A stretch of DNA of 64,000 nt from NCBI RefSeq assembly GCF_001693275.1, contig NZ_CP016477.1, positions 682,001-746,000 of the forward strand, written 5' to 3'. Under the pieces are notes generated by a model. The model worked only from the letters and a program-made list of their open reading frames with translations, did no database searches and was not told where the DNA came from. Origin of the DNA: Picosynechococcus sp. PCC 7117. GTDB taxonomy: Bacteria; Cyanobacteriota; Cyanobacteriia; Cyanobacteriales; MRBY01. The position numbers were made by a program, and so were the translations under genes. Shown here in pieces: positions 7,189 to 32,980 of this stretch. The first letter of the stretch is position 1. Each line of letters starts with the position of its first letter.

Positions 7189-8223
7189 CTAAAGATTTAA
7201 CCCCGGAAAATCGGCGATCGCCATCGTTGAACTGACGAGCTGCATCCCTGCTGCGGCAAATCGAGTAAAGGCTTGGTCGGCCTGGGCCGTAAAATCAACC
7301 ACCTCAGGGATCACGACCGGAGAAGTACAGTCTTCTAAAAGATAAACTTTTTTTGCCAAGGCTGGATCGTAACGCAAAATTTCTGCGAGCAAATCGTCCA
7401 CAGTCCAGGCTAGACAGTGACTTTTCGCCTGCCCCGCAATAATCAACGCATCAAAGGCCAACAATTTTTGCAGGAAACGGGTATTTTCTTGGGCAATGGG
7501 TTGTCCCTGGGCATCGTCTAAGACCTCTGGCCGCAACGCAGAATAATTTTCCGTGAGGGGATTGTCCCCTTTAATCTCAAAATGGGTTTGGCTATGGCGC
7601 ACTAAATTATGGAAAAACAGAGCCTCTTCCACCGCTGGCACAAGGGCATGACCAATCCCCCCCAACATGGCATGGTAGGGCCAAATCGTCAGGGGATATT
7701 TACCCGCTTGGCTGAGTTGGGCGGTGTAGTGGCGGGCATATTCTTGTAAGTCTTCGTAGTCGCGCTTGGTGCTAAAGGCGATCGCCGGATTCACTCGCCA
7801 AAGACCCTGTTCAACCTCCGCAAAGCTAATCTGAGTCGCCGGTTGGGGATGTTCGCCCGCCGCATTAACCCAAAAGACCGGGTGAAAAATTTGCACTGCC
7901 TTGTGGGTGTCCATGGTGGGGGTAATGGTGGTAATTGTCCCGAGATTTCGGTAGATAAATTCACACAGACGTCGGTTATCTTCCACGGCCCCAAGCCCCG
8001 ATTGGCCGCCGACAAACAACTCAAACTCCGGGAGACAAAAGGTATTTTGCACATCGATCACCAGCAGACAAACGCGACAGCGGTCAGTGGTGGCCGGCCT
8101 AATCCCGTGTTCCTTGGCCCAGATTTCAGCAGCGGCGGCTCGGTCTAGATAGGGGACACGCCAGATCTGTCCAACGGTCTGGGGATCAAAAAAAGCAGGA
8201 ATGGGTAGTTGGTTTGCCATCAT
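7189..8223 (-). CDS. Isochorismatase-like cysteine hydrolase
   Basis: A protein of 344 residues from the tandem ATG codons at 8223/8220, which lie about 8 nt after a GAGGT ribosome site. The longer reading from 8283 is not supported. The isochorismatase/nicotinamidase fold is seen in '[19 protein letters not shown]' (catalytic Asp of D-x-Q-N) and '[19 protein letters not shown]' (nucleophilic Cys). A further conserved block is '[15 protein letters not shown]'. It is longer than typical nicotinamidases (about 200 residues), so the substrate may differ. No partner genes flank it. Confidence 0.8.
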
Positions 8224-8600
8224 CGATACCTCATGGGCAACAGATAGTTTCACTATGCCCCTATTGTGGTGTTTTAAAAACACGTTGTCAAATTGTCAAA
8301 TGAGGGAGGCTGGCGATCGCCCGGCTTTGATCGCATGAGCCGGAACGATGATTTGCATGATGTATTTTCAGGGTTGATTCGATGTGCTTTTGCCGTGGAG
8401 AGTTGATTTTTGTCACAGTCTCCCAGGTTCAACATACTATTGTTGTCATTTAAAAGCGTATCCTTGATTACATTGTGTTGATTTTTTAACTCGTTTAATA
8501 GTAAACAACCATTCCCATCAAAAGTTTTTCTGCTAACACTTACTTGGGCGTTGCTCTAGGAAAACTATTTCAGTAAATCAAGTTAAAAACTAGAGTTTTA

Positions 8601-24761: not shown

Positions 24762-25853
24762 GTGCTTGATTCTGCTTGCTTGATTGTTGATTTGCAAAAG
24801 GTTCAGCGCATTACCCAGGGCATTTCCGGTTGTCTGGAACCAACGCTGATCGCCAAACGTTTAACCGAAGCATTGATTAAAGACTTTAATTGCGCCTTTG
24901 CGCGAATTTGGTTAACTGAGCCAGATCAACGATCGCTCCGGTTAGTGGCTTCATCGGGTCTGTCTGAAAACATTAATGGCAGTTTTGCACGGGTTCCCAT
25001 GGGCGCCTATAAGGTCGGAAAAATTGCCAAAAATGGGATTCCATTCCTGAGTAATCAACTGGCGGAAGAAGCTTGGGTAAAAGACCGTGACTGGGCGATC
25101 GCCAACGGAATTCAAGGTTTTGCGGGTTATCCCCTTGCCAGTCAACAACGAATTATTGGTGTGTTAGCAGCTTTTAGCCATGAAACTTTTTTACCAGAAT
25201 TTTTAGAGGTTTTGCAGGTGCTGTGTATGGCTGGGGCGATCGCCTTAGATGCCGCCCAAAAAAGCCCCCAAGATCCCAGCAAAAGCCAGACAAGAGAATC
25301 TCACCCCCTCTCGGATCACCTGGGCAGCCTTTTAAGTACCAGCCAGCTTAGTTTGATTGGTACGGAACGACCTCTGACACCAAGTTCGACCTATCTCTTG
25401 ATTAAAACCGTAGAAATTCTCAATCAATTCAACTGTCACTATTGCCGACTCATCTACAGTGATACGGAAATTTGTCTCGAAGGCATTATCGCCGCCCCTA
25501 ACCCGACGAAAAACAAAGGGCGATCGCCCTTTGCCGACATTGAATTTTTCGTACAAACCCTTGGGGGGAACTGCGATGTCGGGATCAACGCCCAGGAAGC
25601 AGTCCACCAAATTCGCCTTACTTTGCCCTATGGAGCGACCACCCAAGTCTACAAATCAAAAGAATCACTATCCCAACGGGAACGTCAGATTTTAGCGCTT
25701 CTCACCAAAGGGTTGCGTGATCGCGACATTGCCCAGCAGCTCCACATCAGTGAAAGTACCGTAAAATTCCACCTAAACCGCACCTTGAGTAAACTACAAG
25801 CTAAAAACCGCTACCAAGCCATTTACCAAGCCACAAAACAAGGTTTGATTTAA
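24762..25853 (+). CDS. GAF-domain LuxR-type transcriptional regulator
   Basis: 363 residues from a GTG start at 24762. An N-terminal GAF domain (about 20-160: 'ALIKDFNCAFARIWLTEPDQ', 'GKIAKNGIPFLSNQLAEEAW', 'GYPLASQQRIIGVLAAFSHE') is a likely ligand or redox sensor. A linker follows, and a LuxR-type helix-turn-helix ends the protein (about 300-360: 'LSQRERQILALLTKGLRDRD', 'HISESTVKFHLNRTLSKLQA'). No receiver domain is present, so it is not a classical response regulator. The 3' end overlaps the converging HNH gene by 4 nt. Signal and targets are unknown. Confidence 0.82.
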   Translation: MLDSACLIVDLQKVQRITQGISGCLEPTLIAKRLTEALIKDFNCAFARIWLTEPDQRSLRLVASSGLSENINGSFARVPMGAYKVGKIAKNGIPFLSNQLAEEAWVKDRDWAIANGIQGFAGYPLASQQRIIGVLAAFSHETFLPEFLEVLQVLCMAGAIALDAAQKSPQDPSKSQTRESHPLSDHLGSLLSTSQLSLIGTERPLTPSSTYLLIKTVEILNQFNCHYCRLIYSDTEICLEGIIAAPNPTKNKGRSPFADIEFFVQTLGGNCDVGINAQEAVHQIRLTLPYGATTQVYKSKESLSQRERQILALLTKGLRDRDIAQQLHISESTVKFHLNRTLSKLQAKNRYQAIYQATKQGLI

Positions 25854-26317
25854 ACGCGATCGCTAGTTCCACTATCCCCCAACAGCCGATCCAATTTCGG
25901 AGGATGTCGCCCAACATCTCGATCCGCTTGCCGAATCAACAGAACGCGCTCCCGATTCATATCTAATCTGGCGATCGTTGCCCGCCCAATTTCCGTTAAG
26001 CCTACCAACATAACTCCATCTTCTGCCCAAACAAAATGATCAGCCCATCGATCACAACGCGGGTTAAACAAGCGAACTTCCGCCCCTGACAGCAGATCAA
26101 CTCCTGTCACGAAACTTGACTTTTTACGATTGCAATGAAAACAAGCCAACGCCAAATTTTCCACATCATCCGAACCGCCCCGAACCTGTGGAATGACATG
26201 ATCAATCGTGAAGCGAACATACTGCCATAACTCCACCCCATGACAATACTCACATAGACCCTTAGCTCTTTCTCTGACTTTGTTTTGAATTTTCTCTGGA
26301 AGTGGTGATCTACCCAT
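25850..26317 (-). CDS. HNH endonuclease domain protein
   Basis: A 155-residue protein with a clear HNH nuclease core: 'CEYCHGVELWQYVRFTIDHV', then 'IPQVRGGSDDVENLALACFH' and 'CNRKK'. The two CxxC pairs bind a structural zinc, and the Asp-His plus Asn-x-x-x-x-C-x-x-C-N form the metal site. The C-terminal half ('LFNPRCDRWADHF', 'RATIARLDMNRERVLLIRQ') is the usual extension in free-standing cyanobacterial HNH genes. It starts 3 nt after the stop of a small gene, so the two form an operon. Role is unknown; defence, repair or selfish homing are possible. Confidence 0.85.
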   Translation of the reverse strand: MGRSPLPEKIQNKVRERAKGLCEYCHGVELWQYVRFTIDHVIPQVRGGSDDVENLALACFHCNRKKSSFVTGVDLLSGAEVRLFNPRCDRWADHFVWAEDGVMLVGLTEIGRATIARLDMNRERVLLIRQADRDVGRHPPKLDRLLGDSGTSDRV

Positions 26318-26320
26318 TTC

Positions 26321-26593
26321 CTATGCCACCATGCTCCCAGCAGCAGCATTACGAACTGTCCGATTCACAAAACTCAAATAATCATCAATTTCTTCATAAC
26401 AGTCCAATTCTTCCTCCTCAGCCTCGGTCAATCCTTCAGACTGCTGCTTCTCCAACAAAACTTCAACCCGTGCCTGTACCTGTACTGAAGCTCGAAAAAT
26501 CAGAACCCCTTCCACCAAATCAAGCTGAACAGCACCATCAAGCGGTATGGAATTCGACAAACGTTGCAGCACAGGAAAAGTAGAAGCAGCCAT
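26321..26593 (-). CDS. Small partner protein of HNH nuclease
   Basis: A 90-residue acidic protein: N-terminal strands ('AVQLDLVEGVLIFRASVQVQ') followed by a glutamate-rich helix ('TEAEEEELDCYEEIDDYLSF'). The stop is 3 nt before the HNH start, so translation is likely coupled. The length, acidity and order (small gene first) resemble an antitoxin or specificity partner, but this is inference. I recall similar pairs in other cyanobacteria without an assigned role. Confidence 0.65.
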   Translation of the reverse strand: MAASTFPVLQRLSNSIPLDGAVQLDLVEGVLIFRASVQVQARVEVLLEKQQSEGLTEAEEEELDCYEEIDDYLSFVNRTVRNAAAGSMVA

Positions 26594-26743
26594 AATGTTT
26601 AAATCGAAAAACTATGATCATCATAACTTAGTAAACTGCTCGCCACTAAGTCAGGAACTCGGTTTTTATTTGATTGAGGAAGTTTAGAATTCCTAATGAA
26701 CGTCTTTTAACTGAAACCGGATTAATAATCCTTCGTTCGGTTG

Positions 26744-27982
26744 TTAAGCAGAAGCCGGTACCAAAAGCCTTGCTGTAATTTGTGTCGCCAAATATTCTGC
26801 ATCGCGAGTGACACCGGAAAAACGACCAGAGCCCCAGGTATAGAGCCAGGGCAAACCAAGGAAATATAATCCGTCTACGGCGGTTACCCCTCGGTCATGT
26901 AAGGGTTCTCCCAACTCATTAAAGATGGGGAGATCAATCCAACTAAAGTTCAAGCGAAAGCCCGTCGCCCAAATAACTGCACCAATGTTGGTTGCCTTGA
27001 GGTTGAGGGATGATGGTTCTAATTCTGGCTCCCAGACGGGTTGATAATGGGCCTCTGGGGGAGCGGTGATGTTGTTATCAGCGATAAATTTGTCAATATT
27101 CCGTTGGATGCGCACCACGGTGGTATCAGCCCGATCTAAATTTTGTTTTAAATCTTTCCCAAAGTGGAGAGTCTGCCCGGTAATACTTTGCAAGCGACCA
27201 TAGAGGTGCATTCCCTGTTGGGCAAAGCGGCGCAGATCAATATCACGACCCCCATCCCGGCCTGTGACATAGTGATTGGTTTTATGACGCACCATTTCTT
27301 TTTGGGGATGCTGGTCGATGGGTAGGTCGTAATAACCCATGCGTTCGAGCCACTCCACCACATCCTTACCCCGATAGCGGCGCGGCGCCCGGGGCGCACT
27401 ACCGGTAACAAGGTGAACTGTTTTCCCTGCCAAATGAAGATCTTCGGCAATTTGACAACCCGACTGGCCAGTGCCCACAATCAAGACTTCATCGGGAAGA
27501 TCCTGGGGATTTTTGTACTGTACAGAATGAATTTGCTGTACATCACGGGGCAGTTGGGCGGCGATGGGCGGAATTTTTGGAACGTGGTATCCACCCGTGG
27601 CGATCGCCACTTGATCAGCTGTGTAATCGCCGATGGATGTTGCCACTGCAAACTTGGTTCCAGACGAACTTACTTTTAAGACAGTTACTCCCTCTCGAAT
27701 TGGGGGATTAAAAGAGCGGGCATAGGCTTCTAAGTAAGAAACAATCTCCTCCTTAGCCATAAAGCCATTAGGATCAGGCCCCGCATAGGAAAAACCAGGG
27801 AGCCGACATTGCCAATTGGGGGTCACCAAACAAAAAGAATTCCAGCGTTCATTACGCCACGCATGGCCAACTTTATGTTTCTCAAAAATAAGGTGGTCAA
27901 TGTTGTTTTGCTTGAGGAGATAGCTGAGGGCAAGTCCTGCCTGGCCACCCCCAACAATTATTACCGGGTAATGGGTCTGCAT
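26744..27982 (-). CDS. Nit1C flavin-dependent monooxygenase (MSMEG_0569 family)
   Basis: A 412-residue flavoprotein. FAD-binding 'VIIVGGGQAGLALSYLLKQN' (about 8-27) and NADPH-binding 'EVLIVGTGQSGCQIAEDLHL' (about 163-182) Rossmann motifs are present, with 'AIATGGYHVPKIPPIAAQLP' between them and 'VIWATGFRLNFSWIDLP' late. This matches the flavin-dependent oxidoreductase of the Nit1C cluster. It is divergent from the other six cluster genes. A perfect NtcA-type promoter lies directly upstream, so expression should rise when nitrogen is short. The substrate is unknown; oxidation of a cyano- or amino-compound is inferred from cluster context. Confidence 0.88.
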   Translation of the reverse strand: MQTHYPVIIVGGGQAGLALSYLLKQNNIDHLIFEKHKVGHAWRNERWNSFCLVTPNWQCRLPGFSYAGPDPNGFMAKEEIVSYLEAYARSFNPPIREGVTVLKVSSSGTKFAVATSIGDYTADQVAIATGGYHVPKIPPIAAQLPRDVQQIHSVQYKNPQDLPDEVLIVGTGQSGCQIAEDLHLAGKTVHLVTGSAPRAPRRYRGKDVVEWLERMGYYDLPIDQHPQKEMVRHKTNHYVTGRDGGRDIDLRRFAQQGMHLYGRLQSITGQTLHFGKDLKQNLDRADTTVVRIQRNIDKFIADNNITAPPEAHYQPVWEPELEPSSLNLKATNIGAVIWATGFRLNFSWIDLPIFNELGEPLHDRGVTAVDGLYFLGLPWLYTWGSGRFSGVTRDAEYLATQITARLLVPASA

Positions 27983-28011
27983 TGCCGTTGCTCTTAAGTG
28001 GATTGGATTTA

Positions 28012-28053
28012 ACTGTAAACCCGCTCAATTCTTTTTCTTGTAAGGGTTGTTAC
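28012..28053 (-). promoter_or_regulatory. NtcA-activated promoter facing the Nit1C flavoprotein
   Basis: GTA-N8-TAC lies at 28040-28053 and is symmetric. Read on the minus strand it is followed after exactly 22 nt by TACAGT (28012-28017), which fits the TAN3T -10 box. This spacing is the consensus for class II NtcA promoters, and the predicted transcript would start about 25 nt before the flavoprotein ATG. In the plus direction no TAN3T lies at the right spacing, so the site is aimed at the flavoprotein, although it could also assist the operon 330 nt away. Rest of the 27983-28380 gap: no gene seen. Confidence 0.8.
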
Positions 28054-28380
28054 CGATCCCAGCGGTTTGTGATTACCCATAGGCGATCGATGAATTGCGA
28101 CCCAGTAGCTGCTATTTTGGTGGCCTAACCTAGCAAAATCAATAGTTCTTTTAGGACACAATCACTATCCTCTAATCAGGACAAAATCAGATAGCTATTA
28201 TCAAACAAGCTTGAATCTAGCCAAAAAGACAATCCAGAAATTGGCTTTTCAATCAAAAAACTATTCCTTTAAACAGAAGGTCTCCTTTTGTCAGCAATGA
28301 TACAGGTCGCCTTGAGTTCTCCCCTTACAGTAATGCACAACTCAACCCATTAAAACCAAGAAATCAAAGGAAAATTTACC

Positions 28381-28863
28381 ATGCCTGAAGTGACAATTCC
28401 TGCCCACCAGACCGGTGACTTTCTTGTCGATTACGAAGAAAAAGTTTTTCCTGATGTCCAAGCAGAGCCCGGCGAAAAAGCACTAATCACCTTTCACACA
28501 GTGGCTTTTGAAGGTTCTATTGGTTTAGTTAATTTATTACAAGCGAGTCGCCTCATTAAAAAAGGATTTGAAACGTCTGTGCTACTTTATGGCCCTGGGG
28601 TAACTTTAGGGGTGCAGCGGGGCTTCCCGAAGCTGGGCGATGAAGGATTTCCGGGGCACTTAGCCATGAATGATCGCCTGGTTAAGATTATGGAATCTGG
28701 CGGAAAAGTCTATGCTTGTCGCTTTGCACTGCAGGCTCTCTACGGTCATGGGGAAGCTTCCTTGATTCCTGGTATTCGCCCGATTAGTCCCTTGGATGTG
28801 ATGGATTTAATTTTAATGCACCGTAAAGAAGGGGCGTTTATTCTTGATACTTGGACAATGTAA
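28381..28863 (+). CDS. Nit1C nitrogen-starvation protein (MSMEG_0572 / Sll0783 family)
   Basis: A 160-residue protein of the Sll0783 family. The fold looks DsrE-like: '[20 protein letters not shown]', '[20 protein letters not shown]', '[17 protein letters not shown]'. In Synechocystis, sll0783 is strongly induced by nitrogen starvation and its mutant has impaired polyhydroxybutyrate accumulation. A ribosome site AAAGGA precedes the ATG. It is the first gene of the plus-strand Nit1C operon; the nitrilase follows after 160 nt. The biochemical role is unknown. Confidence 0.9.
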
Positions 28864-29023
28864 AAATCAAGGGTTTTATTCCTGAAAATCCTAGAGAGTC
28901 TATCAGGCAACCTACAAATTTTTATGTTTAATAAAAATTTCTGGATATTTCAATCACTTTTTTGAAATATCTTTGGTTGCCAAATTCGTTTTTTGTGAGT
29001 TTGTTGTTTCCCTGGTAGCGACT

Positions 29024-30031
29024 ATGCTTGATTATTCAAAAACGATTCGGGCAGCAGCAGCACAAATCAGTCCGGTTTTGTTTAGTTGTGCAGATACAAC
29101 AGAAAAAATTCTAGAGACAATTACCCAAGCAGCCAAGGAGGGAGTGCAACTCATTGTTTTTCCAGAGACCTTTGTTCCTTACTACCCTTACTTTTCTTTT
29201 ATCGAGCCCCCAGTGCTGATGGGCAAAAGCCATCTCCAGCTCTATGAGCAAGCAGTCACAGTCCCTGGCCCAGTTACGGCAGCGGTGGCTGAAGCGGCCC
29301 AAGCCCATGACATGGTGGTGGTTTTAGGGGTGAATGAACGGGAGGAGGGTTCCCTTTACAATACCCAATTGATTTTTGATCACGATGGGACATTGCGCCT
29401 TAAGCGCCGCAAAATCACTCCCACCTACCATGAGCGAATGGTTTGGGGCCAGGGAGATGGGGCTGGTTTAACGACGGTCGATACGGCGGTGGGCCGTGTG
29501 GGTGCTTTAGCTTGTTGGGAGCACTATAATCCCCTTGCTCGCTATAGTCTGATGGCCCAACATGAGCAGATTCACTGTGGTCAATTTCCGGGATCTATGG
29601 TGGGGCAAATTTTTACGGAGCAAATGGAAGTGACCATGCGTCACCATGCCCTCGAATCCGGCTGTTTCGTAGTCAATGCAACGGGATGGCTCTCGGCAGA
29701 ACAGAAGGCCCAATTGACCAGCAATGAAAAGATGCACAAGGCCCTTAGTGGTGGTTGTTATACGGCCATTATTAGTCCTGAAGGCAAACACCTCTGTGAA
29801 CCTATTTATGAAGGGGAAGGTTTGGCGATCGCCGATTTAGATTTCTCCCTGATTACCAAACGCAAGCGAATGATGGATTCAGTGGGACATTACTCCCGCC
29901 CTGATCTATTCCAGGTACAACTCAATGACGCACCTTGGGCCACCCTCAACACGAGTTCCTTGCCCTTTCCCTCAGAAGTAACGCCACTGCCGAATACCCC
30001 GGCCCCAGATATTCCCGCCTCCTGTCCCTAA
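29024..30031 (+). CDS. Nitrilase of the Nit6803 type (Nit1C cluster)
   Basis: 335 residues from the ATG at 29024; the in-frame upstream extension from 28973 is hydrophobic and not conserved. The catalytic triad is E48 ('[16 protein letters not shown]'), K130 ('[13 protein letters not shown]') and C164 ('[14 protein letters not shown]'). Sequence is very close to Synechocystis Nit6803 (Sll0784), a nitrilase that hydrolyses aliphatic and aromatic nitriles to acid and ammonia. In the Nit1C cluster it is the gene tied to cyanide use. It follows the Sll0783-type gene and precedes the radical SAM gene by 24 nt. Confidence 0.95.
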
Positions 30032-30055: not shown

Positions 30056-31150
30056 ATGACTATGCCCATGGATAAACAACGTCTGATTACAGAACTCCAG
30101 TCCCACGGCCTCCGCCTCACAGAGACCACGATGACGGGACGCCAAGGGGGGGCAGGGCCTTCGGATCACCGGGCAGTGACCATTGGCGGGACCACCGTGA
30201 TGGTTCCTATCTATACGAATACCGCTGGGCGATCGCCTTACCATGCCACCCTAGATTCCCAACGGAGTGAAGCCAAGCTCCAAAAACATCACCAAGAAAT
30301 TGCCCCCATTACCCTGCAAGGACGTCCCAAATTCTACGACCTAGAGACAGCGGAAGGGATTCCCTACTGGAAAATTGCCCTTCTCCATAGCAACAATGTC
30401 CTCGCCACAACGGTGCAACAAACCTGTATGCGCTATCGGGACGAAAGCACGGCCTGTCAATTTTGTGCGATTGAAAAATCCCTAGAAGCAGAACAAACCA
30501 TTGCCCGCAAACTCCCGGAACAGTTAGCAGAGGTTGTGGAAGCGGCGGTGCGGCTCGATGGCATTGAGCAGGTCATCATGACCACAGGGACTCCCAACAC
30601 AGGCGATCGCGGTGCGGCTTACCTGACCAAATGTGCCGCTGCCATCACAGCAAAAGTCGATATTCCCATCCAAGCCCAATGTGAACCCCCCGCCGATTTT
30701 GTCTGGTTTGAGCGCTTAAAAGCCGCTGGTGTAGATAGTTTAGGAATGCACCTAGAGGCCGTTGATCCCGCAGTCCGTGCCAAAATCATGCCTGGCAAAG
30801 CAGAAGTCCCTGTTTCCTACTACTACCAAGCCTATGAAGCAGCAGTGCAAGTATTCGGTTGGGGCCAAGTCAGCACCTACCTGCTAGCCGGTTTAGGCGA
30901 TAGTTTTGCAACGCTTGTGACGGCGGCAGAAAAATTAGTCAGTCTTGGCGTTTATCCTTTTGTGGTACCTTTTGTCCCCATTTCTGGCACGCCCTTAGCA
31001 ACCCATCCAGCCCCTGATCCAGAGTTTATGTTCGCTCTCTACCAAAAGGTGGGTCAGATTCTCAAGGAAGCGGGAATGTCTTCCCAGGCAATCAAAGCCG
31101 GTTGTGCAAAATGCGGCGCCTGTTCCGCATTGTCTACCTTTGAAAATTAG
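30056..31150 (+). CDS. Nit1C radical SAM protein (MSMEG_0568 family)
   Basis: A 364-residue radical SAM enzyme. The cluster-binding cysteines are C124, C134 and C137 ('QQTCMRYRDESTACQFCAIE'), i.e. C-x9-C-x2-C instead of the canonical C-x3-C-x2-C. The barrel continues with 'IEQVIMTTGTPNTGDRG', 'IPIQAQCEPPADF' and 'VDSLGMHLEAVDPAVRAKIM', resembling the biotin synthase and lipoyl synthase fold. A C-terminal 'AGCAKCGACSAL' could bind a second cluster. Three Met codons (30056, 30062, 30068) could start it; no strong ribosome site decides. The reaction is unknown. Confidence 0.9.
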   Translation: MTMPMDKQRLITELQSHGLRLTETTMTGRQGGAGPSDHRAVTIGGTTVMVPIYTNTAGRSPYHATLDSQRSEAKLQKHHQEIAPITLQGRPKFYDLETAEGIPYWKIALLHSNNVLATTVQQTCMRYRDESTACQFCAIEKSLEAEQTIARKLPEQLAEVVEAAVRLDGIEQVIMTTGTPNTGDRGAAYLTKCAAAITAKVDIPIQAQCEPPADFVWFERLKAAGVDSLGMHLEAVDPAVRAKIMPGKAEVPVSYYYQAYEAAVQVFGWGQVSTYLLAGLGDSFATLVTAAEKLVSLGVYPFVVPFVPISGTPLATHPAPDPEFMFALYQKVGQILKEAGMSSQAIKAGCAKCGACSALSTFEN

Positions 31151-31164
31151 GGAGGTTACGGGAA

Positions 31165-31683
31165 ATGAGCCGTCAACGATTTCAGTTTGAACTCGCCCAG
31201 TCTGCGGCGGAAATTCGCGCCTATTTTGCCCTGAGACGGGATATTTTTTGTGAAGAACAGGGAATTTTTACGGGCAATGATTTTGATGACCTCGATCCCA
31301 TTGCCTATCCGATTGTCGCTTTAGATAAGAGCTCATCCCCCCAGAGTAAGGTGGTTGGGGTTGTGCGCATCTACGAAAGTGAGCCCCAGGTTTGGTATGG
31401 TGGCCGCCTGGGAGTCCAGCCAGAGTTTCGGCGCGTGGGACGCATTGGTAAGGGGTTAATCTACAAAGCGGTCACAACGGCCCATGGTTGGGGCTGTACT
31501 AAGTTTCTGGCGACGGTACAGCTACAGAATGTGCGTTTTTTCCAGCGGCAACATTGGCATTCTCTCGCGGAAATGGACATTTGCGATCGCCCCCATCATC
31601 TTATGGAGGCAGATTTAAACTTTTACCCACCGGCAGTGAATCCCCGACCCCAACTTGACCTAGGGACTTGGCTCGTTTCCTAA
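31165..31683 (+). CDS. Nit1C GNAT-family N-acetyltransferase (MSMEG_0567 / Sll0786 family)
   Basis: A 172-residue GNAT-fold protein: 'IRAYFALRRDIFCEEQGIFT', 'KVVGVVRIYESEPQVWYGGR', 'GVQPEFRRVGRIGKGLIYKA' (acetyl-CoA pyrophosphate loop R/Q-x-x-G-x-G/A variant) and 'QNVRFFQRQHWHSL'. An AGGGAGG ribosome site precedes the ATG. It is the fourth gene of the operon and follows the radical SAM gene by 14 nt. In some other Nit1C clusters it is fused to the AIR-synthase-like domain; here the two are separate. Acceptor substrate unknown. Confidence 0.88.
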   Translation: MSRQRFQFELAQSAAEIRAYFALRRDIFCEEQGIFTGNDFDDLDPIAYPIVALDKSSSPQSKVVGVVRIYESEPQVWYGGRLGVQPEFRRVGRIGKGLIYKAVTTAHGWGCTKFLATVQLQNVRFFQRQHWHSLAEMDICDRPHHLMEADLNFYPPAVNPRPQLDLGTWLVS

Positions 31684-31709
31684 AGGAAAAAATAATCGAA
31701 ATACTTGGC

Positions 31710-32687
31710 GTGAACATCACTTTACCCCAGTTGGCAGAGACCCTACGCCACAATTTGGGCCTTTTACATAAACGGGATATTCAACTCGCTTCCCGGCAAT
31801 TTCAACGGCAATTTACAGCCCAGGGGCAAGCCATTCGCCTTGGGGATGATTGTGCAGCCATTCCCGACCAAGCTGGTTTTCTCCTTCTCGCCGCAGAGGG
31901 CATGAGCCCCGCATTGGTGCAACAGGATCCATGGTTTGCGGGCTGGTGTGGGGTGCTCGTAAATGTCAGTGATATTTATGCCATGGGGGGACGGCCCTTG
32001 GCGGTTGTGGATGCTCTGTGGGCCTGTGGAGATCAGCAGGCGCGGCAGATTTGGGACGGGATGCAGGCAGCGGCAGAAAAGTTTCAGGTACCGATTGTTG
32101 GGGGGCATACCAATACCCACAGTGAATACGATGCCTTGGGGGTCGCGATTCTCGGTCGGGCAAAACGACTGATTACCAGTTTTGATGCCCAGGTGGGCGA
32201 TCGCCTCGTGTTAGTCGCTAATTTTGAAGGGCAACCCCGGCCCCACCTCCCCTACTGTTGGGATGCCGCCACCCAGGCCGCTCCAGCGCAACTCCAGGCC
32301 CAATGGGATTTATTACCGCTCTTGGCCGAACGGGGTTTATGTAGCGCTGGCAAAGATGTCAGTATGGGGGGAATTATCGGCACAACTTTGATGCTCTTGG
32401 AAACGTCTAATTGCGGTGCGATCTTGGATATTGGCGCAGTTCCCTGTCCACCACAGCTCGATTTGCAACAATGGCTCCTCAGTTTTCCGAGCTACGGTTT
32501 TTTGCTGACCGTGCCCCCAGAGCAGGTCTCTGAAGTAGAAATGTTGTGCGAAGATCAGGGGTTAGTCGCTCAGGCGATCGCCACCATTACCCCAGGCCAC
32601 ACCTTGACCCTTAAACTGGGGGAAACTAGCCTCGATTTTTGGCACCTCGACTATGTTCCGCTCACTGGCTTTACCGGAGGCTCCTAA
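31710..32687 (+). CDS. Nit1C AIR-synthase-related protein (Sll0787 family)
   Basis: A PurM/ThiL/SelD-like ATP-binding protein of about 325 residues. Seen: 'IRLGDDCAAIPDQAGFLLLA' (metal and ATP-binding Asp pair), 'WCGVLVNVSDIYAMGGRPLA', 'IVGGHTNTHSEYDALGVAIL' and 'SAGKDVSMGGIIGTTLMLLE'. The start is uncertain. GTG at 31710 gives a family-like N-terminus but has no close ribosome site; a TTG at 31668 would overlap the GNAT gene. Family members phosphorylate or activate amide-type substrates with ATP. It is 26 nt after the GNAT gene and 5 nt before the next gene. Confidence 0.85.
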   Translation: MNITLPQLAETLRHNLGLLHKRDIQLASRQFQRQFTAQGQAIRLGDDCAAIPDQAGFLLLAAEGMSPALVQQDPWFAGWCGVLVNVSDIYAMGGRPLAVVDALWACGDQQARQIWDGMQAAAEKFQVPIVGGHTNTHSEYDALGVAILGRAKRLITSFDAQVGDRLVLVANFEGQPRPHLPYCWDAATQAAPAQLQAQWDLLPLLAERGLCSAGKDVSMGGIIGTTLMLLETSNCGAILDIGAVPCPPQLDLQQWLLSFPSYGFLLTVPPEQVSEVEMLCEDQGLVAQAIATITPGHTLTLKLGETSLDFWHLDYVPLTGFTGGS

Positions 32688-32692
32688 ATTCT

Positions 32693-32980
32693 ATGCCAGC
32701 CGTTACTTTTGATATTGTTTGGCCCGACGGCTCCCAGGATCAATTTTATTCTCCCTCCACCGTCGTCCATGACTACTTTCAGGTGGGACAAGGCTACGCC
32801 CTGGCGGATTTTGTGCATCGCTCCCAAACGGCCCTCACCCTTGCCAGTAAGCGGGTCGAACAGCGCTATGGTAGCCCCTGTTCCCTGGCCCTGAGGCAAC
32901 TCCAACGTGTTGAACAAAAGGCTAGTACATTCATGGATCAACCCAATGCCCAGGTCACAATCTTGGCGAATGATCACTAA
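32693..32980 (+). CDS. Nit1C small protein (MSMEG_0570 family)
   Basis: A 95-residue protein from the ATG at 32693; the longer open frame from 32639 is a shadow of the gene before it. It carries the family blocks 'VTFDIVWPDGSQDQFYSPST', 'VVHDYFQVGQGYALADFVHR' and 'SQTALTLASKRVEQRYGSPC'. It is a marker gene of the Nit1C cluster, with no known activity. It starts 5 nt after the AIR-synthase-like gene and ends 4 nt before the lipoprotein gene, so all belong to one transcript. Confidence 0.88.
   Translation: MPAVTFDIVWPDGSQDQFYSPSTVVHDYFQVGQGYALADFVHRSQTALTLASKRVEQRYGSPCSLALRQLQRVEQKASTFMDQPNAQVTILANDH

Follow-up and report, generated by a model that had tools for sequence, protein, structure and literature searches.

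The intergenic region between the two divergent arms of a cyanobacterial Nit1C cluster (cyanide/nitrile nitrogen) very probably holds a pair of divergent promoters: judged from its sequence, each arm would be served by a class II NtcA promoter of its own, and the two arms would be induced together in nitrogen starvation. The cluster is located within a stretch of DNA of 64,000 nucleotides, the whole of which is referred to below as the window.

All seven Nit1C genes of the window exceed the cut-offs of their NCBIfam models. The minus-strand arm is nitH (26744-27982), a flavin-dependent oxidoreductase of the MSMEG_0569 family (TIGR04046, 686 bits, cut-off 498). The plus-strand arm opens with nitB (28381-28863, TIGR04044), coding for a nitrogen starvation response protein of the MSMEG_0572/Sll0783 family, and continues with nitC (28973-30031, TIGR04048, Nit6803-family nitrilase), nitD (30056-31150, TIGR04043, MSMEG_0568-family radical SAM protein), nitE (31165-31683, TIGR04045, MSMEG_0567/Sll0786-family acetyltransferase), nitF (31668-32687, TIGR04049, sll0787-family AIR synthase-like protein) and nitG (32639-32980, TIGR04042, MSMEG_0570-family protein); nitB to nitG would be read as a single transcript. 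The names nitH and nitB-nitG are those found in the available portion of PMC9716671. The starts of nitC and nitF are mechanical TTG assignments: for nitC, an ATG near 29024 is the likelier candidate, because the alignment of many homologues begins only around residue 18; the true start of nitG is probably the ATG near 32693. The genome contains one NtcA-family gene above the curated cut-off (380.7 vs 244.95 bits), and four further, weaker matches to the NtcA model, all below it.

A class II NtcA promoter has no -35 box, the activator being found in its place. The canonical form consists of GTAN8TAC near -41.5 and a -10 box of the TAN3T type, according to the accessible text of PMC3898017, and a definition is also given in that of PMC9430850; among 508 putative NtcA sites of Anabaena, GT-N10-AC is the highly conserved part (PMC3898017, same portion).

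On the minus strand of the window, the palindrome GTA ACAACCCT TAC (28053-28040; GTAACAACCCTTAC, read directly from the sequence) is followed, after 22 nt, by the -10 box TACAGT (28017-28012, TAN3T type) and then by the nitH ATG at 27982, so placed that 57 nt separate the TAC from the ATG. GTAN8TAC is perfect here, and the GT-N10-AC core is intact. With the site centred at -41.5, nitH transcription is predicted to start near 28005 on the minus strand, leaving a leader of about 23 nt.

The plus strand carries a second NtcA-type site, GTC AGCAATGA TAC (28290-28303; GTCAGCAATGATAC), not present in the preliminary description. It is followed by 22 nt and by TACAGT (28326-28331), facing nitB (28381), with 77 nt between the TAC and the nitB ATG. 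Its single departure from the consensus is at position 3, where A is replaced by C; GT-N10-AC is kept, and both spacing and -10 box are as in the nitH promoter. Transcription of nitB is predicted to start near 28338 (plus strand), with a leader of about 43 nt. Having one mismatch, the nitB site may be a weaker NtcA binder than the perfect nitH site. The preliminary description, which dealt with the minus-strand element, was exact in its coordinates, 22-nt spacing and TACAGT hexamer, and the start that it had proposed near 28005 agrees with an NtcA site centred at -41.5. Its further statement, that the plus-strand operon had no such site nearby, so that regulation might differ between the arms or depend on a single site acting on both at a distance, did not hold: because of the site found on the plus strand, differential or shared regulation of the two arms is unlikely.

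In order to evaluate how often such elements occur by chance, perfect class II matches (GTAN8TAC, N21-24, TAN3T) were searched on both strands of the window and of 100 dinucleotide shuffles. The window contains 2, and the shuffles average 0.21; when up to one mismatch is allowed, the figures are 8 and 3.82. The bare GTAN8TAC palindrome, found 6 times with a shuffle mean of 4, is uninformative alone. When the 398-bp gap between nitH and nitB was shuffled 5000 times, a perfect minus-strand match was produced in 18/5000 cases and a plus-strand match with at most one mismatch in 85/5000, while both arms were never matched together (0/5000).

A consensus scan of 27900-28450 found no -35/-10 pair at either TACAGT box. 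An ordinary sigma-70 promoter was considered and rejected, the sole weak match lying elsewhere in the nitH-nitB gap (28224-28197, minus strand) and being as frequent as expected (1 vs a shuffle mean of 0.8). A known structured RNA was likewise rejected, Rfam giving no matches at gathering scores within 26500-29000.

The conservation of the two elements was analyzed in 100 loci, taken from the 182 cyanobacterial genomes in which nitH was matched at E<=1e-100 (sets of 34 and 153 genomes, 5 of them shared). These loci include all 14 members of one family, designated f34 and described separately below, and 86 of the 168 others; the 86 comprise the whole 34-genome set and, from the 153-genome set, the best matches and then mostly one locus per genus, the selection being blind to the promoter. 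Genus and family labels were entered by hand. The analysis excluded L024-L043, which matched weakly or in part, L065-L068, which duplicate other loci, and L069-L070, from the ntcA search; 14 short loci were swapped for longer stretches from the same genomes. L046 and L076 were left out of the nitH counts, each having less than 90 nt of upstream DNA, and nitB falls off the available stretch in 25 non-f34 loci. A match was defined as GT-N10-AC with at most one mismatch at A3/T12, followed by N21-24 and TAN3T, within 300 nt upstream of the gene.

Outside f34, a match is found upstream of nitH in 80/84 loci, corresponding to 59/63 genera, against 2.7% of shuffles; 61/84 loci still match when the palindrome must be perfect and the spacing N22 or N23 (strict form), against 0.3%. 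A nitB-upstream match is present in 43 of the 61 non-f34 loci that have nitB on the stretch (shuffles 2.5%). The two gene arrangements can be considered separately. Among the 21 divergent loci, nitH is matched in 20, nitB in 19 and both in 18, those without a nitB match being L108 and L114; among the 40 codirectional loci, where nitH precedes nitB, the corresponding numbers are 39, 24 and 23. One NtcA-type promoter per arm, as recognised by motif, is a feature of both arrangements and of many genera, though not all. Loci without the nitB site may plausibly lack it because nitB is cotranscribed from the nitH promoter.

Two coding stretches, used as controls, gave 0/86 matches each. A further control, the region upstream of nitH read on its other strand, gave matches in 7/84 loci: 5/21 divergent loci, in which this strand carries the promoter of the neighbouring gene, 1/39 of those with nitH before nitB and 1/24 of those without nitB on the stretch. 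Non-cyanobacterial Nit1C loci gave 0/10 matches, and represent a weaker control, since their upstream G+C content is 0.55 vs 0.41. Of one set of 13 loci, L010-L012 (33-36% identity) were removed by a 40% identity filter before the scan.

The position of the -10 box is sharply defined. Following the nearest perfect palindrome, TAN3T is located at 22 nt in 31/67 nitH loci and at 23 nt in 28/67, and, for nitB, at 22 nt in 16/41 loci and at 23 nt in 19/41; over the range from 8 to 40 nt, every other spacing is found in at most 4 loci. If spacings of 16-30 nt are allowed, the first-listed spacing is 16 in 8 nitH loci and in 1 nitB locus; the nitH total is unchanged at 80, so the 8 loci also match at 21-24. 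The class II NtcA promoter that the preliminary description had placed before the Nit1C flavoprotein gene is borne out by its exact architecture and by this recurrence at 22/23 nt, and the NtcA reading is very likely right for nitH. Outside f34, only L092, L099, L112 and L148 have no class II match within 300 nt upstream of nitH. L099, a match at 44% identity, may not be Nit1C; in the other three, nitH is at 63-64% identity.

Within the genus, the cluster is found in 4/6 genomes. Neither nitH nor nitB was detected in G002 and G005 at the thresholds used, which points to a probable gain or loss of the cluster inside the genus. When the whole gap was aligned for the four genomes, 8/9 nitH-promoter positions were invariant, vs 69/273 of the other ungapped positions. 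Only 2/8 nitB-promoter positions were invariant, because L108, from the genus relative G003, has no nitB site: no match is found upstream of its nitB, the alignment of which begins only at residue 36. The nitB site type is present in L113, L109 and L110. Replacing L108 with L110, from another family, made 16/17 positions of both promoters invariant, vs 85/344 others, a figure biased towards this result, as the rows were picked among loci having both sites; the run with all four genomes is the fairer one. When seven loci representing four families were aligned, 0/17 promoter columns were invariant, the gap being too diverged for aligning.

According to the mechanism proposed, the NtcA palindrome of each arm would replace the -35 box, being followed by 22 nt and TACAGT. 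Nitrogen shortage would raise 2-oxoglutarate, and an NtcA dimer would then bind at about -41.5 of each start; bound NtcA would recruit RNA polymerase, and nitH (minus strand) and nitBCDEFG (plus strand) would be induced together. The flavoprotein NitH, which is poorly understood, would then belong to the nitrogen-starvation response of the nitrilase operon, which argues for a shared pathway.

Other explanations of the same elements were weighed. A single NtcA palindrome, that at 28040-28053, could serve both arms, nitB being activated at a distance: it is symmetric at its defining bases, the nitB site has a mismatch, and L108 has a nitH match yet no nitB match. However, nitB carries a site of its own, spaced as in class II promoters, both arms are matched in most divergent loci outside f34 (18/21, as above), and about 290 nt lie between the nitH palindrome and the predicted nitB start downstream of it, which makes a shared site improbable. 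About as improbable, or marginally more so, is the action at these sites of another CRP-family regulator of the genome in place of NtcA. The four weaker matches to the NtcA model could represent candidates for this role, but half-sites, spacing and -10 box are as described for NtcA in the available portion of PMC3898017, and the gene families, together with their reported behaviour, indicate nitrogen control. That the elements are no promoters at all, and the match due to chance, is very improbable indeed: it is true that the bare palindrome is about equally common in the window and in its shuffles, but the full architecture precedes nitH in nearly all loci outside f34, vs about 3% of shuffles, with TAN3T at 22/23 nt.

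Separate class II NtcA promoters for the two arms, which we prefer to the above explanations, resemble those of urtA, nirA, ntcB and glnA, genes for the scavenging of combined nitrogen, as here, whose promoters have GTAN8TAC and TAN3T at class II distance, according to the excerpt available of PMC3898017. They differ from these in that two promoters are arranged back-to-back across a 398-bp gap, and in the GTC of the nitB copy. The Nit1C cluster of Synechocystis PCC 6803 (sll0783-sll0787-ssl1464) consists of the same gene families, and its operon sll0783-ssl1464 is ammonium-repressed, as reported in the portion available of PMC10094980; in that of PMC1199592, the cluster is described as starting with the flavoprotein gene, oriented oppositely, both in this strain and in Synechococcus WH8102. 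According to citations in the accessible part of PMC9716671, Nit1C genes are induced by cyanide and repressed by ammonium. Non-cyanobacterial Nit1C clusters (the 10 loci above; for the arrangement, also PMC1199592, in part) share the enzyme families, NitH included, but have nitH after nitB on one strand and no NtcA-type match, whereas here the arms are divergent and matched. In the available portions of PMC10094980 and PMC1199592, no NtcA promoter is described for either Nit1C arm, the likeliest reports being outside the reach of the search. The promoter type is an established one, as is the nitrogen-starvation cluster that carries it, and NtcA control is not claimed to be absent from print. 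For slr0801, which may be the Synechocystis nitH gene, the literature search found no paper.

Family f34 behaves differently from the other loci. It is composed of 14 loci (L115-L128) from 6 genera, with genomes of 1.6 to 3.7 Mb; all are divergent, with nitH-nitB gaps of 190 to 430 nt. Its small genomes and the divergent arrangement seen in Synechococcus WH8102 (PMC1199592, available text) indicate that it probably corresponds to marine picocyanobacteria. Canonical class II promoters are found upstream of nitH in 1/14 loci, and upstream of nitB in 0/14. Upon alignment, two conserved blocks are evident, each with GT-N10-AC in 14/14 loci. The block facing nitB is followed by NAN3T at a spacing of 23 in 12/14 loci (other spacings from 12 to 35 in at most 3), and that facing nitH by NAN3T at 22 in 9/14 (other spacings in at most 3); these counts come from a non-blind test on related rows, motifs and the relaxation to NAN3T having been chosen from the aligned sequences before the scripted count, and are to be taken as a lead. 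They suggest that f34 keeps the NtcA promoter architecture, its -10 box and half-sites being weakened.

On this basis, we lean slightly towards NtcA control of Nit1C being an old cyanobacterial trait, with a class II promoter per transcription unit surviving rearrangement, whether the genes are divergent, as in some lineages, or nitH precedes nitB, as in others; the f34 promoters would have drifted to a degenerate GT-N10-AC plus NAN3T (22/23 nt), missed by standard GTAN8TAC/TAN3T searches. Confidence in this reading is reduced by the failure of the nitB footprint in L108 and by the non-blind nature of the f34 test. If the degenerate promoters are real, the Nit1C clusters of f34 may be overlooked NtcA targets, and the suggestion follows that motif searches undercount NtcA targets in this family.

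Two further elements of the window can be mentioned. The only other perfect GTAN8TAC plus TAN3T combination, at 8431-8471 (minus strand), has a spacing of 21, outside the usual 22-23, and precedes a 364-aa ORF (7189-8283, minus strand) without Pfam matches at E<=0.001, at a distance of 174 nt from the start mechanically assigned to this ORF. Downstream of nitH, past another small ORF, a small HNH endonuclease-like ORF (PF01844) is located at 25850-26317 (minus strand), and resembles IscB and Cas9d models weakly, with scores far below cut-off.
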